Shown here: one piece after another, positions 3,499 to 60,934 of the stretch
Position numbering within the stretch: the stretch's first letter is position 1
How the letters are laid out: every line of letters begins with the position of its first letter
From: Candidatus Gastranaerophilales bacterium
GTDB taxonomy: Bacteria > Cyanobacteriota > Vampirovibrionia > Gastranaerophilales > Gastranaerophilaceae
Direction of reading: 5' to 3'
NCBI GenBank assembly: GCA_944323955.1
Contig: CALUUK010000004.1
Location: forward strand, 1 to 64,000
Length of the DNA stretch: 64,000 bases
Translations under genes and position numbers: made by a program
Notes under the pieces: generated by a model
Database searches by the model: none
What the model saw: only the letters and a program-made list of their open reading frames with translations
Told to the model about the DNA's origin: nothing

Positions 3499-4574
3499 AA
3501 AAGAAATTATCAAAAATAATGTTTTTAATGCTCTTCGCCGTTACCTGGGGACTTATTCCCGCAAGTGCGGAGGAAGGGGTTTTATTCAAAGAACAGGAAA
3601 TCAATAAAGATGATATTATCTTTAAAGAACAGGAAGTTAATAAGTCGGATATCATCTTTAAAGAGCAGACAGTGGATAAAGAAGACATTGTTTTTACGGA
3701 ACAGGTTTTAGATAAATCCGATATAGTGTTTGTAGAGCAAACAGCTGATACCTTGAGTCTGAAAGAACAGCAGGCTGATAAAGAAGAGCAGTTATTGCAG
3801 CAGGCAAATCTTTCTTTCAGAAAAGGTGTTCAGTATATGAAAATGAAGTCATATGACAGTGCAATGACAATGTTTAAAGAGGCACTTTCATATAACCCGA
3901 AACTATCCGATGCATATTATAATATAGCCTTAATATATGTTGCAAAAAAAGACTATGATGAAGCATATAATAATTATGTAAAGGCAATTGCGCTTAATCC
4001 GCGTGATTATGATGCTGTTTTGCAGGCTGCTAAAATTTCGTATAATCGCGGGAATTATTCATTGGCGCTTAAATACTTAAAGCATATACCTGATGATTAT
4101 GAAAAATATTTCCTTGTCCAACAGGTTAAACAGGATGCTCAGGAACAATTTGATATTCAAAGCGGTACTATAGAACGCTCTAAGATAGCTTCTTCAACGC
4201 CGGCAAAACATGTTATTATTGACCGTTTTAACTCTCCTGCGGGCATGGTTGTTGATTCTAAAGGCAATATGTTTGTTGCAAGTTATTCGGATAACGCAAT
4301 TATAAAGGTGGATAAAAATAAAGTAAAAACAAATCTTGTAAAAGATTATTTGCTTGAAGGACCCGTCGGACTTGCTATTGATAAATATGATAATATTTAT
4401 GTCGCGAATTTTGATGCCGATAATATACTTAAAATTACAAAAAGCGGACTTGTAACAATTTTTATGGAAAGAGTTGCAAAGCCTTATTTCCTTTATATTA
4501 AAGATGATGTCTTATATGTTTCCGAACAGGGAAATAACGTTGTTTTAACTTATGATTTATCAACTTCCAAGTAA
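3495..4574 (+). CDS. exported TPR/NHL-repeat protein with five 12-residue repeats
   Basis: A Sec signal peptide covers residues 1-25 (hydrophobic core then ASAEE). Next come five near-perfect 12-residue repeats (29-88) of consensus IIFKEQEVNKSD, a charged linker, TPR-like helices (about 100-200, with the motif YDSAMTMFKEALSYNP), and about three NHL-type beta blades (230-355, e.g. PAGMVVDSKGNMFVASY). Such proteins act as extracytoplasmic scaffolds; no enzymatic residues are seen. Three blades are too few for a closed propeller, so it may oligomerise or be shortened. The start overlaps the gatA stop. The 3' end overlaps the converging gene by 15 bases. Confidence 0.8.
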   Translation: MKKKLSKIMFLMLFAVTWGLIPASAEEGVLFKEQEINKDDIIFKEQEVNKSDIIFKEQTVDKEDIVFTEQVLDKSDIVFVEQTADTLSLKEQQADKEEQLLQQANLSFRKGVQYMKMKSYDSAMTMFKEALSYNPKLSDAYYNIALIYVAKKDYDEAYNNYVKAIALNPRDYDAVLQAAKISYNRGNYSLALKYLKHIPDDYEKYFLVQQVKQDAQEQFDIQSGTIERSKIASSTPAKHVIIDRFNSPAGMVVDSKGNMFVASYSDNAIIKVDKNKVKTNLVKDYLLEGPVGLAIDKYDNIYVANFDADNILKITKSGLVTIFMERVAKPYFLYIKDDVLYVSEQGNNVVLTYDLSTSK

Positions 4575-6119
4575 TGCGGATTTGTCATATTGGCCGAAAC
4601 TTCCTCCTACTTCGTATAACTGTTTTGAATCAATTTGGAGGTTGTCTCTTATATATGTATTAAAATCTTTAATTGTATCCAATCCTAAGTCTTTATCAAG
4701 CGTATACATAGGAACAACACTCTGAAATGCACAGAGCATTCCTTTTGAATCTGCAATCATTTTCTTCATGTATTCGACGGTATTCGGGAACTTTTGCGCC
4801 GCTACGTTTTCAGGTGTGTCAAAGTCATGACATAAATAATACGGCGCTGCAAATGCAAGAATTGGTTTTTGCGGTTCCATTTCAAGACATGAAATTAAAT
4901 CGTTGAAAAGATTTTCTGCGGAAGATTGTAGTTCACCGTCTTCATCAAGATGTGTAGAGTATTGTTCAAATACTCTTTTTATTGTGGTATTCAGTTCTTC
5001 ATCCAGGTCAATATTTGAATCAGGACCTTCAATAATATTATCAAGCGGGGTTATTTGTCCCAAATGAAACAGTATTCTGTCGGCTTCGGAAACAATTTTC
5101 TTGCTTTTATTGATGTCTGTTTGACCTATAGGTTTCTGTGTACTTTTCATTGTTTCTTCACCTGTTTTTTGTGCATATTCTCTTGCTCTCCAATATAGGT
5201 TTGAAATGCAAAAGTCCTTATCATATGACATATCGTTTTGTTTTATAAATTCTTTTATTTTATATGAAAATTCAGGATAAAGTTTATCAATTTCATGAAT
5301 GAAATCTATTAACATCTGTTTTCTTTTCTGAATTGTATTTTTTGTGAAATTTGATAAGTTGTATGAAAAAGGATTGATACCGTATATTAAGAAGTTACAA
5401 TTTTCAAAGTTTAAATCCGAATTTGGAGCTTCATGTGTGTAGGACATTTTCATTGCCGGTAAGAACTTTACATGTCTATATTTCTCGGGATTTTCACCTA
5501 TAATTCTGATTGCCTGTTGGGCACTTTCCAGTGTATCTTTATCTGCAAGTGCAAAAACGAAATCTTTGCCTGTTTTTGCATGGTATTTATCAGCAAAACC
5601 CGCTACATTATCCAAAATATCGAAAATGTTTTCACGGGAACCTTTGCTGTAATTGCTTTCATAATCCAAATCTATAAAGTATTTCCCGTTTTCTATATTC
5701 TTATTTTTTGCTATAAAATTATCCGTATTTAAGGTGGGAAGAAGTTCTCTGAATTCTTTAGGGGTCATAATACTTTTTAAATTTTCAGGAGGAATATCCA
5801 AATCAAAGAAGTTTTTTATACCTTCAGAAAGTGATTTATGATAGCTGTCTGTAACATCATTTTTATATGGCTCGTAGATATTAACAACATTGGGTTTATA
5901 GTTAAATTGAGCAATGATTGCTTTTATAAACTTAATCAAATTTTTGATAAATTTATTAACGGTTTCAATAAAAGATTTTTTGTTTGAATGATTATCATTT
6001 GTATTTGTACGCGAAGATTCAAAACAATCTTCCTGACTGTTTTGAACCATAACTCTATTGTCGGTTCCGGGGGTAGAGAAAAACCCGACATTGTATTTGG
6101 GAATATTTGTAATTTTCAT
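4560..6119 (-). CDS. probable degenerate PHP-domain protein with N-terminal YNVxF signature
   Basis: This is 519 residues from the ATG at 6119; the longer TTG start at 6161 is less likely. The N terminus MKITNIPKYNVGFF matches a signature shared with other unknown proteins in this window. The blocks DLDYESNYSKGS (151-161), ALADKDT (190-196), PAMKMS (221-226), AFAAPYY (422-428) and GGSFGQ (505-510) fall in the order of PHP phosphoesterase motifs (DxHxHSxxSDG, TDHDT, PGxExS, AHP, GSDxH). The metal-binding His/Glu positions are mostly replaced. I infer a PHP-like fold without normal metal catalysis. Function unknown; no signal peptide. Confidence 0.6.
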   Translation of the reverse strand: MKITNIPKYNVGFFSTPGTDNRVMVQNSQEDCFESSRTNTNDNHSNKKSFIETVNKFIKNLIKFIKAIIAQFNYKPNVVNIYEPYKNDVTDSYHKSLSEGIKNFFDLDIPPENLKSIMTPKEFRELLPTLNTDNFIAKNKNIENGKYFIDLDYESNYSKGSRENIFDILDNVAGFADKYHAKTGKDFVFALADKDTLESAQQAIRIIGENPEKYRHVKFLPAMKMSYTHEAPNSDLNFENCNFLIYGINPFSYNLSNFTKNTIQKRKQMLIDFIHEIDKLYPEFSYKIKEFIKQNDMSYDKDFCISNLYWRAREYAQKTGEETMKSTQKPIGQTDINKSKKIVSEADRILFHLGQITPLDNIIEGPDSNIDLDEELNTTIKRVFEQYSTHLDEDGELQSSAENLFNDLISCLEMEPQKPILAFAAPYYLCHDFDTPENVAAQKFPNTVEYMKKMIADSKGMLCAFQSVVPMYTLDKDLGLDTIKDFNTYIRDNLQIDSKQLYEVGGSFGQYDKSALLGS

Positions 6120-28232: not shown

Positions 28233-29420
28233 ATGACGGATTTAGCTACAAAGAAAGATATAAGGACGATTAACGGAGCTGATATAGCCATAGGCTATCA
28301 GTGGTTTTATACTAATTTGTACAAAAAATTGGTTGAAAACAGTGAAAAATTCTTTGGCAGACCCTTTTCAATACGTTTTATGGGCGTATCAAGTGATGAA
28401 AATATTCTGTTTTACGGCGATGAATATTTTGTAAATAAATTGCCGATAACATCTTCGGCTGACTTTAACGTGAAAATTTCGGCAGATGTAATAAAATTTT
28501 TACTCGACGAAGCACTTGGTGCTTCTGAGAATAAATTCAATCTTAATAATCTTACGGATATTGAAGCCGGAGTTATAAAATCTTATATTATTCGTTTATA
28601 CAAAGGTGTTCAGGAAAATCTGGTAAAACAGGAACTTCCGAAACAACTTGTTCAAAATTATGAAAATCTTAATTTTACGTTCTTTATCAGAGAAGGGGAA
28701 AAACATATAGGTAAAATTATATTTCGTATTCCCGAATATGTAATACCTAAGATTGAGCCTGCTAAAAGAAATGAGGTATTTTCAATAGATGATTTTAAAA
28801 CTACAAAAGCGCTTTTGAAATTAAAGCTCGGAAGCACAAAAATATCTTTGACGGATATAAAAAACATAGAGAACGGCGATATTATAGTGCTTGAGAACAG
28901 TAATATAAATAAAATGTCGGTAGTATGGAAAGATGCGGAAACGCAGTTTAATATAAACCCCAACCCGTCATTAATAATAAGTATTAACAGTAACGGAGGC
29001 AATGAAATGGAAGAAGAAACAAGTACAAAATCTCAAAATATGTGGGATTCTATCCTTGTTGACGTAGTTGCGGAATTTGATAACGTTAAATTAACACTCG
29101 GGGAATTAAAACAAATTTCTGAAGGTTTGGTTATTGATGTCGGATCCGTATATGAAAATAAAATAAAATTACGGGTAGAAAATCAAATTGTGGCAACGGG
29201 CGAGCTCGTTATATTAAATGACAGATACGGTGTAAGAATAGAAGAAGTGAAAAAAAGCAAAGAAATAAAAAGTTCAAAACAAGCTGATGCCGCACCGCAA
29301 GCAAAGAAAGCCGCCGCAGCGCAGCCCCAAGCAAAAAAAGAAAAACAACCTGACAGTGCAAAACAAGGTGATGAAAACTTTGATTATTCGGATTTTGAAA
29401 TTGAAGACGAAAGTATTTAA
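28233..29420 (+). CDS. FliM/FliN-like switch protein with two SPOA domains
   Basis: This 395-residue protein carries a FliM-middle-like region (about 15-175, with LTDIEAGVIKSYI at 107-119), a first SPOA domain (about 190-252, LKLGSTKISLTDIKNIENGDII) and a canonical FliN-type SPOA (272-340). A Lys/Ala/Gln-rich disordered tail ends DYSDFEIEDESI. This is a FliM-FliN fusion or SctQ-like C-ring protein. It heads the fliO-P-Q-R cluster and an AGGG site precedes the ATG. Confidence 0.85.
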   Translation: MTDLATKKDIRTINGADIAIGYQWFYTNLYKKLVENSEKFFGRPFSIRFMGVSSDENILFYGDEYFVNKLPITSSADFNVKISADVIKFLLDEALGASENKFNLNNLTDIEAGVIKSYIIRLYKGVQENLVKQELPKQLVQNYENLNFTFFIREGEKHIGKIIFRIPEYVIPKIEPAKRNEVFSIDDFKTTKALLKLKLGSTKISLTDIKNIENGDIIVLENSNINKMSVVWKDAETQFNINPNPSLIISINSNGGNEMEEETSTKSQNMWDSILVDVVAEFDNVKLTLGELKQISEGLVIDVGSVYENKIKLRVENQIVATGELVILNDRYGVRIEEVKKSKEIKSSKQADAAPQAKKAAAAQPQAKKEKQPDSAKQGDENFDYSDFEIEDESI

Positions 29421-29428
29421 GGATGCAT

Positions 29429-29764
29429 ATGAACACTTATATTATGAATTTTATAGTTTATACCTTTGCAATGATAGGCTTTTTGCTGATGGTTTTATTT
29501 GTATATAAAAAAGCTGTCTATAGTGCACCTGTTAAGAATAATAAAAATATACTTAATGTTGAGACGTCAATGAAATTGTCTCCGACAAAAACAATATATG
29601 TAATAAATGCAGGAAAAGAAAGATTTTTGATTGCGGGAGATACCGCAAATACCACAATGCTTGCAAAACTTGAGAATACGGATTTTGAACCGGGCAATTT
29701 TTCTGCAAATACACTGCAGCGTCAGGAGGAAATCCTGCACACGACATCGGATAGTAAGAGGTAA
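29429..29764 (+). CDS. fliO: flagellar biosynthesis protein FliO
   Basis: It has one N-terminal transmembrane helix (about 8-27) then a small cytoplasmic domain with KLSPTKTIYVINAGKERFLIA, the FliO pattern. FliO helps assemble the FliP ring and is specific to flagellar rather than injectisome systems. ATG 29429 (111 residues) has AAGGA 5 bases upstream; ATG 29423 is the alternative. It lies between the FliM/N gene and fliP. Confidence 0.82.
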   Translation: MNTYIMNFIVYTFAMIGFLLMVLFVYKKAVYSAPVKNNKNILNVETSMKLSPTKTIYVINAGKERFLIAGDTANTTMLAKLENTDFEPGNFSANTLQRQEEILHTTSDSKR

Positions 29765-29767
29765 AAA

Positions 29768-30409
29768 ATGGAAGCATTATTAAAAGATTTAAGTCCCGTA
29801 CTTCAACTGTTGGCAGTAATGGCAATGTTCTCAATGCTGCCGTTTATGTTCGTTTGTATGACGAGTTTTCTGAGGTATGCAATTGTTTTCGGATTTTTAA
29901 AACAAGCGCTCGGTGCCCAGCAAATACCACCTGCTATAGTTCTTGTAGGTCTTTCAATGATATTGACTTTCTATACTATGGCTCCCGTATTTCAACAAAT
30001 GTATGAAGTAGGTTCTAAACCATATCAGGAATCAGGTTCAATGGTTCTTGCAATATCCGAAGGTTCAAAACCGTTGAAAGAATTTATGCTTAAACAAACA
30101 AGAGAACAGGATTTGGCATTTTTTGTACAACTTGCAAGAAAAGAAGCTCCCGAAAGTGTTGAAGATATTACAATATGGGAAGCAGCTCCCGCTTATATAT
30201 TAAGCGAACTTAAAACTGCTTTTGAAATCGGATTTATAATTTTTATTCCGTTTATTGTTTTGGACCTTGTTGTTGCAAACGTATTGTTAGCATTGGGGAT
30301 GTTTATGTTATCTCCGACAATTGTTTCTTTGCCGTTTAAACTGCTGATATTTATAGCTGTTGACGGCTGGGGGCTTGTTGTGAACGGACTTGTAGGCAGT
30401 TATAACTAA
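29768..30409 (+). CDS. fliP: flagellar export gate protein FliP
   Basis: FliP forms the core ring of the export gate with FliQ and FliR. The 213 residues include MTSFLRYAIVFGFLKQALGAQQIPP (31-55), LSMILTFYTMAPV and the terminal LPFKLLIFIAVDGWGLVVNGLVGSY. All are strongly conserved. It lacks the signal peptide found in many FliP proteins and is close to SctR in length. It starts 3 bases after the fliO stop. Confidence 0.95.
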   Translation: MEALLKDLSPVLQLLAVMAMFSMLPFMFVCMTSFLRYAIVFGFLKQALGAQQIPPAIVLVGLSMILTFYTMAPVFQQMYEVGSKPYQESGSMVLAISEGSKPLKEFMLKQTREQDLAFFVQLARKEAPESVEDITIWEAAPAYILSELKTAFEIGFIIFIPFIVLDLVVANVLLALGMFMLSPTIVSLPFKLLIFIAVDGWGLVVNGLVGSYN

Positions 30410-30418
30410 GGGTTATTT

Positions 30419-30916
30419 ATGGAAATTTTAATAGAATATTTTGCAAAAGGTTTGATGACAATGCTTATGATAACGATGCCGTGTGTATTGACCGCAGCGG
30501 CTATCGGTCTTATTGTTGGTATTTTGCAGGCTGTTACTCAGGTTCAGGAACAAACGATAGCCGCTGCTCCTAAAATTTTTGCCGTATTTCTTGTTATTAT
30601 TTTGCTTGGAACCGGATATTTAAGGCTTTTAACCAATCTTTTTCATGAAGGCTCATCCATTGCATTTAATGTAATTCCTAAAAATGACGCATTTGTTTTG
30701 CCTGCGGATTATTATAATTATACAAAACCGTTTATTGATGAAATGAAAACGGATTATAAAAAAGATATGGTTCCGATGTCAACGATTTTAAATTCCCCGT
30801 CAAGAACTATGGGAAATGATAAAAAAGACAGATTCAGCGTTTTAAGAAACGGTGCGGTTGAAGTTCCCGCTCCGAATCTTGTTGAAAGAAAAACCATAAT
30901 GGAAAACAGAAGATAA
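30419..30916 (+). CDS. fliQ: export gate protein FliQ with C-terminal extension
   Basis: Residues 1-90 are a normal FliQ with two membrane helices (MPCVLTAAAIGLIVGILQAVTQVQEQT, then IFAVFLVIILLG). FliQ is usually about 90 residues; here a further 75 or so, hydrophilic and predicted disordered (ending LVERKTIMENRR), follow in frame. The extension would lie beyond the second helix. AAGGG precedes the ATG. It is part of the fliO-P-Q-R run. Confidence 0.93.
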   Translation: MEILIEYFAKGLMTMLMITMPCVLTAAAIGLIVGILQAVTQVQEQTIAAAPKIFAVFLVIILLGTGYLRLLTNLFHEGSSIAFNVIPKNDAFVLPADYYNYTKPFIDEMKTDYKKDMVPMSTILNSPSRTMGNDKKDRFSVLRNGAVEVPAPNLVERKTIMENRR

Positions 30917-30931
30917 TTTCGGTAAGATAAA

Positions 30932-31714
30932 ATGCTAGATACTATTTTAACAGAGTTTCCTAAATATTTTCCCGAAATAAACGGAGCCTTGGCTGCGGGA
31001 GTTCCCGTTTTTGCAAGAGTTGCCGGATTGATGAGAGCAACACCGTTTTTAAAGAGAACAGAAATTCCTACGATTGCAAAAATAGGATTTGCTTTTATAT
31101 TTACGGTAATGCTGTGTATGTTTTTAAAACCTGCTCCGCCTACAAATGAAGTGTCGATGTTATATTCCATAATTGTTAATTTTATATGCGGTGCAATAAT
31201 AGGGTTTGTAATTAATTGTATTATTCAGGCGATTGAAGCCGGAGGTGATATGATTAACAGCCAGCAAGGTTTAACCGCAGCGACGATTATGGATCCTTCA
31301 AGTTCTTCTCAGGTCTCTATTATGGGGAAAATATTCGGTATTCTGGCAATTATAATTTTTCTGCAAATAGGCGGAGCTTATTGGACTTTTAACGCGTTTA
31401 TAAGAAGTTTTGAAATATTTCCTATATATTCATACGCTATTCCGCTTGACAGTATAATAAATATGCCTTATCTCGTGAAGATTACTTCAAATGTTTTATA
31501 TGTAGGATTACAAATAGCCTCACCGGTTCTTATTGCTACTTTGGGACAGGATATTATACTCGGGGTTATTAACAGAACCGCCCAGCAGGTTCCGGTTTTT
31601 CAGATGAGCTTTATGTTTAAGCCGGGGCTCGGTGCCGTAATTTTAGTTATTATTATGCCTAATATGCTTAATATTATTGAAGATTATTTCCTGTCGTTTT
31701 CAAATATATTTTAA
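30932..31714 (+). CDS. fliR: export gate protein FliR
   Basis: This 260-residue multi-helix membrane protein completes the FliPQR gate. FARVAGLMRATPFLKRTEIPTIAKIGFAF, AGGDMINSQQGLTAATIMDPSSSSQ and FQMSFMFKPGLGAVIL are FliR hallmarks. Neither flhB nor a full-length flhA follows, unlike many flagellar loci. It ends 8 bases from a converging small gene. Confidence 0.94.
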   Translation: MLDTILTEFPKYFPEINGALAAGVPVFARVAGLMRATPFLKRTEIPTIAKIGFAFIFTVMLCMFLKPAPPTNEVSMLYSIIVNFICGAIIGFVINCIIQAIEAGGDMINSQQGLTAATIMDPSSSSQVSIMGKIFGILAIIIFLQIGGAYWTFNAFIRSFEIFPIYSYAIPLDSIINMPYLVKITSNVLYVGLQIASPVLIATLGQDIILGVINRTAQQVPVFQMSFMFKPGLGAVILVIIMPNMLNIIEDYFLSFSNIF

Positions 31715-56192: not shown

Positions 56193-57146
56193 ATGAGAGT
56201 TAATTCAGTAACACCCGTCAATATTTACCCCCGTCCGGCCATAAGCGCAGGCGCGGATTTCAGGGAGAGAAAAAGTGCGTACGAACATAAGAGCGAAGAA
56301 CGAGAAAATACAAATCAAATAAACACGACCATCAGAGAGAATTCTGATGGTCGTGTGAGTTTTAAGGGCGGTGCACCGCTTCTTCATAAAGCTGCAACCT
56401 TTGCAGGAAACAACCCTCTTGTTGCGGAAGCATTGTTTGCCATATTGGTAACATGCGGATTAAGACCGATTACAATTCTTGCAACAGCAAAAAGCGATGA
56501 AGAAAAGGAAAAATGTTCATATCAGGCAGCAAAGTCAATATCCTCCGGCGTTGTAGGGCTTGGAATGACCGCATTGGTCGGTACTCCTATTGCAGCTGCG
56601 GTTAAAAAAGCGTCCGAAAAGAAAGCATTTGATATTCCTCCGGAAATGAAGGCTAAATCGGAAGAAATTGTTAAAAAAGGAGTCGATGCACTCCAAAATT
56701 TAGCGAAGAAAGAGGGCGGCGAAATTTCGGATCTGATTACTAAATTAACTAAAGAAAGCGGTAAACTGAATCTGAAAGTGTTTACAAAGAAGGGTGCAGA
56801 GTCACAACAGGCATTTATTCAGAAAGTATCCGAGAAGTCGCCGGAAATTGTTGAAACGGTTGAAAAAGCCATAAAAGAACAAAGAATTATTAATAACTTT
56901 ACAGATACCGGAAAAAATGTAATGAACAAATTGTTCCAGCCTGTATTTATGCCGCTGAGAGCAATGGTTACGATTGCAATGGTGCCTGTTCTTTTAAATT
57001 TGCTGGGATTGAAAAAACCGGCTAAAAAACAACCGCCGGTACTTGAACAAAATCCTCAGATAGTGCTTAACTATAATGTCTTCCAAACTGACAACGAGAA
57101 AGAGCTTTTTAAATCTTTTGCGGAGGTGACAAAACATGAAAATTAA
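56193..57146 (+). CDS. unknown membrane protein with SFKG motif (pair member 1)
   Basis: The 317-residue protein begins MRVNSVTPVNIYPRP, has a polar segment to about 50, then VSFKGGAP (53-60). Two hydrophobic stretches lie near 70-95 and 108-130, a long charged helical region at 135-240, and another hydrophobic stretch near 250-272. The motif and layout recur in the next gene, so the two are probably paralogues. The part coding residues 44-55 contains a perfect 14-bp hairpin. Function unknown. Confidence 0.65.
   Translation: MRVNSVTPVNIYPRPAISAGADFRERKSAYEHKSEERENTNQINTTIRENSDGRVSFKGGAPLLHKAATFAGNNPLVAEALFAILVTCGLRPITILATAKSDEEKEKCSYQAAKSISSGVVGLGMTALVGTPIAAAVKKASEKKAFDIPPEMKAKSEEIVKKGVDALQNLAKKEGGEISDLITKLTKESGKLNLKVFTKKGAESQQAFIQKVSEKSPEIVETVEKAIKEQRIINNFTDTGKNVMNKLFQPVFMPLRAMVTIAMVPVLLNLLGLKKPAKKQPPVLEQNPQIVLNYNVFQTDNEKELFKSFAEVTKHEN
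56323..56356. repeat. perfect 14-bp inverted repeat inside a coding region
   Basis: Arms 56323-56336 (ACACGACCATCAGA) and 56343-56356 (its exact complement) enclose 6 bases. It lies about 130 bases into the pair-member-1 gene and stays in frame. It could pause transcription or translation, or be a small inserted element. Confidence 0.7.
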
Positions 57147-57741
57147 TGCCGTAACACAAAATTATAATTTTAAAAATAATGCAAATTTATCAAATAATAA
57201 AAAGCATTCGAATCCGTCTTTTTCCGGTGCCGCACCTAAGCCTTTGGTTAACGGACTTTCGACTTTTTATGAAAAAGTTGCTTCATCAAAAGGTTTTCAG
57301 GGCTTTATAAAAAAATTCAGCAACTCTGACAGAACTTTTACTCATATAATGGTTGCAGAAAGTGTTCTGTTATCAGGTTTTTATATGCTTAATACTTTAA
57401 GCAATAAAAAAATTGAAAAAGAACAGAAACCTCAAATGCTTATTAATGATACGTTAACATTGGGAGTATCGGCGGCAGGTGCATACTTGCTTGACGATAA
57501 AGTTTCAAAGGCGGTAAAAACCATTACGGATAAATTTATGGACAAACACAAAGATTTTTATAGCTCGGCAGAAAATGCTTCAACTTTCAGAGCAGGTATG
57601 AGCAAGTTAAAAACCATAGTTATATTCGGAATGATATACAGATATCTGGGACCTGTTTTAATTACTCCATTGGCAAATAAACTGAGTTCCAAGTTCTTTA
57701 ATAATCCAAAGGAATCTGAAAAAACACAGGATAAAAAATAA
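57136..57741 (+). CDS. unknown membrane protein with SFSG motif (pair member 2)
   Basis: The 201-residue protein begins MKINAVTQNYNFKNN, then SFSGAAP (28-34), matching SFKGGAP in pair member 1. Its hydrophobic segments (about 74-90, 108-122, 160-182) and a VAES block correspond to VAEA in the partner, with EKE and AVK blocks at similar distances. It overlaps the first gene by 11 bases with GGAGG upstream. The two proteins likely act together. Function unknown. Confidence 0.65.
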   Translation: MKINAVTQNYNFKNNANLSNNKKHSNPSFSGAAPKPLVNGLSTFYEKVASSKGFQGFIKKFSNSDRTFTHIMVAESVLLSGFYMLNTLSNKKIEKEQKPQMLINDTLTLGVSAAGAYLLDDKVSKAVKTITDKFMDKHKDFYSSAENASTFRAGMSKLKTIVIFGMIYRYLGPVLITPLANKLSSKFFNNPKESEKTQDKK

Positions 57742-60520: not shown

Positions 60521-60934
60521 ATGAAAGTATCATCAATCGGAAATTATAATGTCGGATTTTCAGCCGCTGTGGCAAAGAAAATTACAAGTGAAGATATAAA
60601 TCGTTATTATAACGCTCAAATCCGTCCATTGGAAATCCAACGTGATTCGTTGCTGCAGTTGGATTCTTTTATGGATAGTGATTTCGTCAAAAATTGCATG
60701 AAAAAACTGCCGAAAGAAGACGAACTTTATATTGATTGCAGAAATTTGGATATAAATGATACTCATCTTCTTTATAATCCCGCAAATAAAAAAAGTATGG
60801 CCAAATTTGAGTCGATTCCCGTGGATGATGCTATGGAAAAGGTTTTGCATAAAACCGAGCTCAAAAACGGACAATTGGATGTTGACGGTATTGCAAAATG
60901 GCTGAGTAATCTTGTGGATTTTCTTGGCAAATAG
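60521..60934 (+). CDS. unknown small protein with YNVGF signature
   Basis: The 137-residue protein begins MKVSSIGNYNVGFSAAVAKK, closely matching MKITNIPKYNVGFF of the PHP-like protein. The rest is soluble, mixed helix and strand (EDELYIDCRNLDINDTHLLYNP), with no catalytic pattern I recognise. An AGAGG site precedes the ATG. It lies between clpP and ffh and has no clear promoter of its own. Confidence 0.65.
   Translation: MKVSSIGNYNVGFSAAVAKKITSEDINRYYNAQIRPLEIQRDSLLQLDSFMDSDFVKNCMKKLPKEDELYIDCRNLDINDTHLLYNPANKKSMAKFESIPVDDAMEKVLHKTELKNGQLDVDGIAKWLSNLVDFLGK

Follow-up and report, generated by a model that had tools for sequence, protein, structure and literature searches.

Why do proteins with dissimilar bodies, encoded within a short stretch of a Gastranaerophilales genome, begin alike? 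The window considered here covers the first 64 kb of contig C4 from a Candidatus Gastranaerophilales genome (G000; 1.96 Mb, 33.5% GC). Judged by a conserved gene, the nearest named relatives are Cyanobacteria bacterium SIG29 and numerous Candidatus Gastranaerophilales MAGs. An earlier note on this DNA had proposed an N-terminal signature, MK(I/V)-x-YNVxF, on unrelated proteins of the window, with SF(K/S)G(G/A)AP further in. The four open reading frames (ORFs) concerned are all present with the N termini described, and the second motif was seen in the proteins starting at 57136 and 56193 (Table 1). When all M[KRN][IVLF] starts were listed, MK[IV]...YN[VF] proved to be a corner of a larger pattern. 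This pattern is a bipartite tag, consisting of a head, M[KRNQ][IV]xx[IV], that is polar apart from its hydrophobic residues at positions 3 and 6, a variable disordered linker enriched in Asn, Ser, Gln and Pro, and a Phe box, [VIP]SFx[GA], which can lie 5-70 residues beyond the head. The head of the proposed signature was real, but YNVxF, with just two strict members, was too narrow; what is conserved is M[KRNQ][IV]xx[IV] and the separate SFx[GA] box. Dozens of unrelated Gastranaerophilales proteins bear the tag, which is conserved for its own sequence.

We read 1.88 of the 1.96 Mb and predicted 1735 genes with a simple in-house caller (coding score and ribosome site); gene starts are those of this caller. 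The scan of the proteome against shuffled controls that the note had suggested was run, and enrichment at N termini held: MK[IV]x2-7YN[VF] occurred in 4 of 1710 proteins, compared with 0.08 in shuffled sequences, and was absent from all 8828 internal Mets. Taken by itself, the head (M[KRNQ][IVL]xx[IVL], polar at 4, 5 and 7), a pattern defined post hoc after looking at the data, occurred 39 times versus 2.9 (shuffled) and 1.6 (internal). As a non-circular test, we employed a two-block position weight matrix (PWM) whose training set was confined to the tags that GlgA-like proteins carry in other genomes, with pseudo-N-termini at internal Mets as controls. In the first 1.63 Mb, 31 proteins scored at least 6 (2.0 expected) and 22 at least 9 (none in the controls); over 1.88 Mb, a score of at least 7 was reached by 31 of 1601 proteins (1.94%) as against 0.09% of control positions. 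SFxG was concentrated within residues 1-60 of proteins. By inspection, a count that is partly judgement, about 50 proteins of the genome (~3% of the proteome) are tagged.

Among these tags, which were partly picked by the head, a hydrophobic residue stood at position 3 in 85% and at position 6 in 71%, versus 30% and 41% in the proteome. The last box lay at residue 30 or beyond in 36 of 50 tags, and in 10 the only box preceded residue 19. No Sec-like N terminus was found among 51 tagged proteins, compared with 307 of 1735 (17.7%) overall, an outcome that the selection partly favours. Transmembrane (TM) segments were equally frequent in tagged and other proteins (32% and 30%), so membrane proteins are not the defining cargo. 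Clustering of tagged genes was not convincing (4 adjacent pairs versus 1.5 expected, p 0.06).

The best-sampled carriers of the tag are GlgA-like glycosyltransferases. One of them (C1:142925) matched PF08323 and PF00534 of Pfam, and starch and glycogen synthases headed its Foldseek matches (E 8e-18, TMt 0.75), indicating a GT5 fold. Matches to these proteins were confined to the order at the threshold used, and nearly all of 87 ORFs with an intact N terminus were tagged. Across 76 aligned N termini, conservation was 100% for the box Phe, 88% for the Ser and 76% for the Gly; head residues 1-3 were restricted to M-[KRQ]-[IVL], whereas linker columns were mostly less than 35% conserved. In a separate alignment of 39 proteins, only M1 and F40 were invariant before the core. 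The box Phe was found at a median of residue 40 (range 33-78), often at the boundary between tag and core, some 4-12 residues ahead of the GT5 core, and a membrane helix is located at the C terminus of these proteins. An AlphaFold (AF2) model of one member gave a predicted local confidence (pLDDT) of 31-42 for residues 1-40 and >85 from residue 44; in the model, the tag is N-terminal and unstructured.

The codons of the conserved box residues (Ser, Phe, Gly) vary synonymously among the 76 orthologues; therefore, selection acts on the protein. The earlier note had allowed for a conserved start context. A context of translation start, or chance resemblance in AT-rich coding sequence, would fit the fact that MKI and MNI starts are common at 33% GC, but it is refuted by the internal-Met and shuffled controls, and neither the synonymous diversity nor a box conserved as far from the start as residue 40 agrees with it. 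We consider this explanation very improbable.

The tag is present in at least 3 families of the order. The PWM matched 3 of the 303 proteins sampled in five further families of the order, but none of 309 proteins from four genomes representing four other families of the class; outgroup sampling covered 100 kb per genome and left out family f11. In the flanks of 80 named Gastranaerophilales loci, there were 37 matches versus 1.0 expected (17 families altogether), about 15 of the 37 being unfiltered GlgA-like proteins. We found no description of the tag in the literature searched, a search that most subscription journals lay outside.

Most tagged proteins matched no Pfam family, but housekeeping enzymes are among those identified. 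A phosphoglycerate kinase (PGK) carries a tagged extension of 69 residues and shares 82% identity with the untagged PGK that G000 also encodes. Its core has a ratio of nonsynonymous to synonymous substitution (dN/dS) of 0.078 and keeps 217 of 230 positions that are invariant in 29 other PGKs. These 29, from other genomes of the same family, are untagged like its own paralogue, which excludes the tag as an old trait of PGK. A mis-called start is unlikely: the core position reads CTT, the extension is coding-like, and an AGGAGG site precedes the ATG. Similarly, a phosphoglucomutase-glucose-6-phosphate isomerase (PGM-GPI) fusion is tagged and has untagged paralogues of both halves in the genome; so has a tagged phosphoribosyl pyrophosphate (PRPP) synthetase an untagged paralogue, the enzyme having been named by sequence reading and from that paralogue. 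GH77 counts among the paralogue pairs as well. Two 4-alpha-glucanotransferases (GH77), an alpha-amylase-like protein, a nucleotidyltransferase weakly related to GlgC, a Hel308-like helicase, a metallophosphoesterase and an HNH protein are also tagged. In other genera, second, longer PGM-type copies have matches starting just before the box position; we infer that they are tagged, the tag status of PGM and GH77 orthologues in relatives having been judged from match starts only.

Two observations concern individual tagged proteins or their neighbours. The tagged proteins C1:324436 and L153:8758 have a kinase-like glycine loop, GxGFEGxV[YF], noticed by eye in C1:324436, but neither Pfam nor the Protein Data Bank (PDB) gave a match. 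Proteins starting with MG[LM]AASQAR[FY]L..TARK (C5:104740-105786 of G000, L135:7661 and L140:9014) are possibly subunits of a surface filament, and the copy in G000 lies beside a tagged 4-alpha-glucanotransferase.

Within the window, the proteins encoded at 57136 and 56193 have complete tags, and a paralogue of the former (C2:154525) is likewise tagged. Those at 60521 and 4560 are only probable members because their boxes are weak (VGF[SF][AS]) despite good heads; for the 60521 protein, 59 other genomes of the order yielded no homologue, and Pfam gave no match. Across the proteome, the head does sit on unrelated cores, as had been claimed, but the pair at 56193 and 57136 is perhaps related. 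The two genes overlap, both are tagged, and each corresponds to a different half of one 350-aa relative (L090:18834; C2:154525-like), the match of the 56193 protein being weak (E 8e-4), as if one gene may have been split with each half bearing its own tag. Besides the tag, the 56193 protein carries a C-terminal ELFKSF motif. Within their final 22 residues, 7 proteins of G000, this one included, carry a motif of this form, [DE][IVL]F[KS]x[FLM], where 0.9 would be expected; almost all are tagged membrane proteins.

The tag co-resides in this genome with a flagellar-type export apparatus and with solo FlhA domains. Proteins of Escherichia coli K-12 matched FlhA, FlhB, FliP, FliQ, FliR, FliE, FliF, FliI, FliN, FlgB, FlgC and FlgF/G-like proteins, and FliG, FliH and FliJ were assigned by position and sequence reading only. 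Flagellin, FlgK, FlgL, FliD, MotA and MotB were not found with E. coli queries against the genome. The Pfam flagellin model gave no match in 28 of 28 genomes of the family, although it did in four other families of the class. 'Partial flagellar gene sets' have been reported in these bacteria (PMC5877343).

Besides a full-length FlhA, G000 encodes three FlhA cytoplasmic-domain paralogues without the membrane part, one in the window and the others at C9:41471-42937 and C2:94859-95500. The one in the window covers positions 321-652 of the FHIPEP profile, lacks the membrane part and has an extra N-terminal domain; its gene is convergent with tagged 57136, 53 bp apart. According to published work, the FlhA cytoplasmic domain serves as a docking platform for substrates. 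The window type of solo domain was found in 59 of 60 genomes of the order, in all seven sampled families, whereas among 69 genomes of other orders of the class only family f11 had similar fragments. The gene immediately downstream of the solo domain is a GH77 gene in G027 and G052. In a family member that is 99% complete (G045), solo domains were matched but full-length FlhA was not. Separately, two types of FlhA can be distinguished in the class by score (850-890 bits and ~700-755 bits), the lower-scoring type being kept in the flagellin-less families f1, f11 and f12, and this distribution suggests a second type III secretion system (T3SS) of flagellar type that does not depend on the flagellum.

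Table 1. Tagged proteins and components of the export apparatus in the window
Feature	Coordinates	Strand	Support and remarks
Tagged protein (probable), family unassigned, 519 aa, MKITNIPKYNVGFFSTPG	4560..6119	-	head MKITNIP; weak box VGFFS
FliN-domain protein, flagellar-type T3SS	28233..29420	+	phmmer with E. coli FliN, 1.5e-8
FliO-like small membrane protein	29429..29764	+	position and topology only
FliP, export gate	29768..30409	+	9.5e-57
FliQ, export gate	30419..30916	+	7.5e-12
FliR, export gate	30932..31714	+	2.9e-24
Tagged membrane protein, 317 aa, MRVNSVTPVNIYP...VSFKGGAP	56193..57146	+	head MRVNSVT 56193-56213; box VSFKG 56355-56369
Tagged membrane protein, 201 aa, MKINAVTQNYNFKNN...NPSFSGAAP	57136..57741	+	head MKINAVT 57136-57156; box PSFSG 57214-57228
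Stand-alone FlhA cytoplasmic domain, 487 aa	57794..59257	-	Pfam PF00771, E=1e-51
Tagged orphan protein (probable), 137 aa, MKVSSIGNYNVGFSAA	60521..60934	+	between clpP and ffh; head MKVSSIG 60521-60541; weak box VGFSA 60551-60565

Elsewhere in the genome, a very large family of proteins of 310-370 aa with Cys-containing N termini, like C9:64520, is represented by dozens of copies across many contigs (for example, C9:43441-65380 and C11:34059-46359).

What does the tag do? A tag for sorting, docking or export, and not ancestry shared by whole proteins, remains the best reading; the earlier note had named sorting, docking or processing. We tentatively favour an export signal for a flagellar-type T3SS (FlhAB-FliPQR, FliF-J and rod proteins) that has been kept without flagellin, although we give it somewhat less than an even chance. 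In early flagellar subunits, an unstructured N-terminal signal with small hydrophobic residues at about positions 3-7 is followed by a docking motif at least 19, and best 30, residues away (PMC8983047). The hydrophobic residues at positions 3 and 6, the box Phe at a median of residue 40 and the Chlamydia precedent described below are among the reasons why T3SS export is favoured. The disorder of the tag, the tagged and untagged paralogue pairs, the export apparatus kept without flagellin, the solo FlhA C-domains with their tagged or GH77 neighbours and the lack of Sec-like starts count in its favour as well. We infer recognition, export and destination as follows. The Phe box would dock the substrate, possibly on an extra stand-alone FlhA C-domain; next, as happens with early flagellar subunits, the gate would be contacted by the Ile/Val at the extreme N terminus, and export of the core would follow. 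By gaining the tag, enzymes would become cargo, often after duplication (PGK, PGM-GPI, PRPP synthetase, 4-alpha-glucanotransferase), comparable to the glycogen enzymes of Chlamydia. Since ATP, sugar phosphates or nucleotide sugars are required by the cargo, its destination would have to be the cytosol of another cell or a compartment containing metabolites. That an apparatus which outlived the flagellum, together with duplicated soluble FlhA docking domains, forms a general secretion system delivering tagged enzymes and unknown effector-like proteins into other cells is a bolder proposal, and a somewhat unlikely one.

Several observations weigh against T3SS export. The flagellar docking (gate-recognition) motif reads FxxxPhi, and the box does not conform to it: a hydrophobic residue stood at F+4 in 2 of 70 GlgA tags and 9 of 41 tags of the genome, below background. 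The tags whose only box precedes residue 19, about 10 of 50, fall under the published minimum spacing. The flagellin-less families f11 and f12 keep FlhA, and f12 showed no tag in 100 kb; therefore, the T3SS alone does not predict the tag. Adjacency of solo FlhA and tagged genes is missing from L113 and L130 and so is not general, and part of the cargo reaches a very large size (1943 aa) or contains membrane segments.

The main and serious rival, which retains a real though smaller chance, is intracellular sorting or docking, by which metabolic isoforms (PGK, PGM-GPI, GlgA-like proteins, GH77 and PRPP synthetase) and membrane proteins would be directed to an internal protein- or membrane-bounded, glycosome-like body without crossing a membrane. 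The enrichment of the cargo in enzymes of glycogen and sugar phosphates, which depend on cytosolic metabolites, would suit such a body, as would the coexistence of tagged and untagged isoforms and the C-terminal membrane helix of GlgA-like proteins. However, PF00936, the shell protein of bacterial microcompartments (BMC), is absent from G000 and present in the controls, encapsulins not having been searched for; no receptor is known, and the cargo also comprises a helicase, an HNH nuclease, a phosphoesterase and many proteins without a known family. Alternatively, the tag might be an export signal for another route, such as vesicle loading or an Omp85-type pore. The tagged proteins have no Sec-like signal, the tag is spread more narrowly than the T3SS and the box is unlike the flagellar motif, all in line with such a route, but no candidate machinery was found to match the range of the tag, a range that the solo FlhA C-domain nearly does match; we regard this route as unlikely. 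Less likely still is a tag for processing or stability, in which a protease or chaperone would read head and box to control the turnover or maturation of lineage-specific proteins. Cleavage at a box placed at the boundary of tag and core would free the mature core, but a head conserved some 40 residues upstream of a cleavage box would be unusual, and the recruitment of duplicated enzymes would not need it.

With an address tag defined by sequence on ~3% of the proteome, protein traffic becomes predictable in an uncultured, widespread gut lineage, and PGK, PGM-GPI and PRPP synthetase provide a clear case of housekeeping enzymes duplicated and re-addressed by an added short signal. Under the export reading, the puzzling 'partial flagellar gene sets' of these bacteria (PMC5877343) would acquire a function. 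If the link with the T3SS is true, gut commensals possess an unrecognised secretion system for which a marker list of cargo is at hand; if delivery into other cells is true, one reusable tag marks all cargo and can be read from sequence in uncultured gut relatives of cyanobacteria.

Each of several known systems shares part of this design. Like the encapsulation peptides of BMCs, the tag is a short terminal extension on unrelated enzymes; unlike them, it is disordered and polar and not an amphipathic helix, and targeting to a microcompartment was rejected for the lack of a shell gene. In trypanosomes, isoforms of glycolytic enzymes including PGK, with and without a peroxisomal targeting signal (PTS), occur in one cell, those with PTS in glycosomes; tagged and untagged isoforms of one glycolytic enzyme are thus common to both cases, whereas the tags differ, and we know of no peroxisome-like organelle in these bacteria. 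With the early signal of flagellar rod and hook subunits, the tag shares small hydrophobic residues at the N terminus, an unstructured linker, a Phe-containing, putative docking motif downstream, in many tags some 30 or more residues away, and the presence of FlhAB-FliPQR. It differs in that the box is SFx[GA] and not FxxxPhi, the linker is sometimes shorter than 19 residues, the carriers are enzymes and unknown proteins instead of rod or hook subunits, and the primary sequence is strongly conserved. Chlamydia offers a parallel in cargo: phosphoglucomutase (CT295) gained a type III secretion signal (PMC9251005), and glycogen enzymes, which are secreted into the inclusion, were tested for such signals (PMC4829429), so that housekeeping carbohydrate enzymes (PGM, glycogen synthase and relatives) are linked to an N-terminal T3SS signal there too. 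The parts of the two reports that were consulted describe no sequence motif shared among the chlamydial signals (PMC9251005, PMC4829429), whereas here a single conserved two-part tag recurs on ~3% of the proteome in gut bacteria that are not chlamydiae and possess a flagellar-type apparatus.
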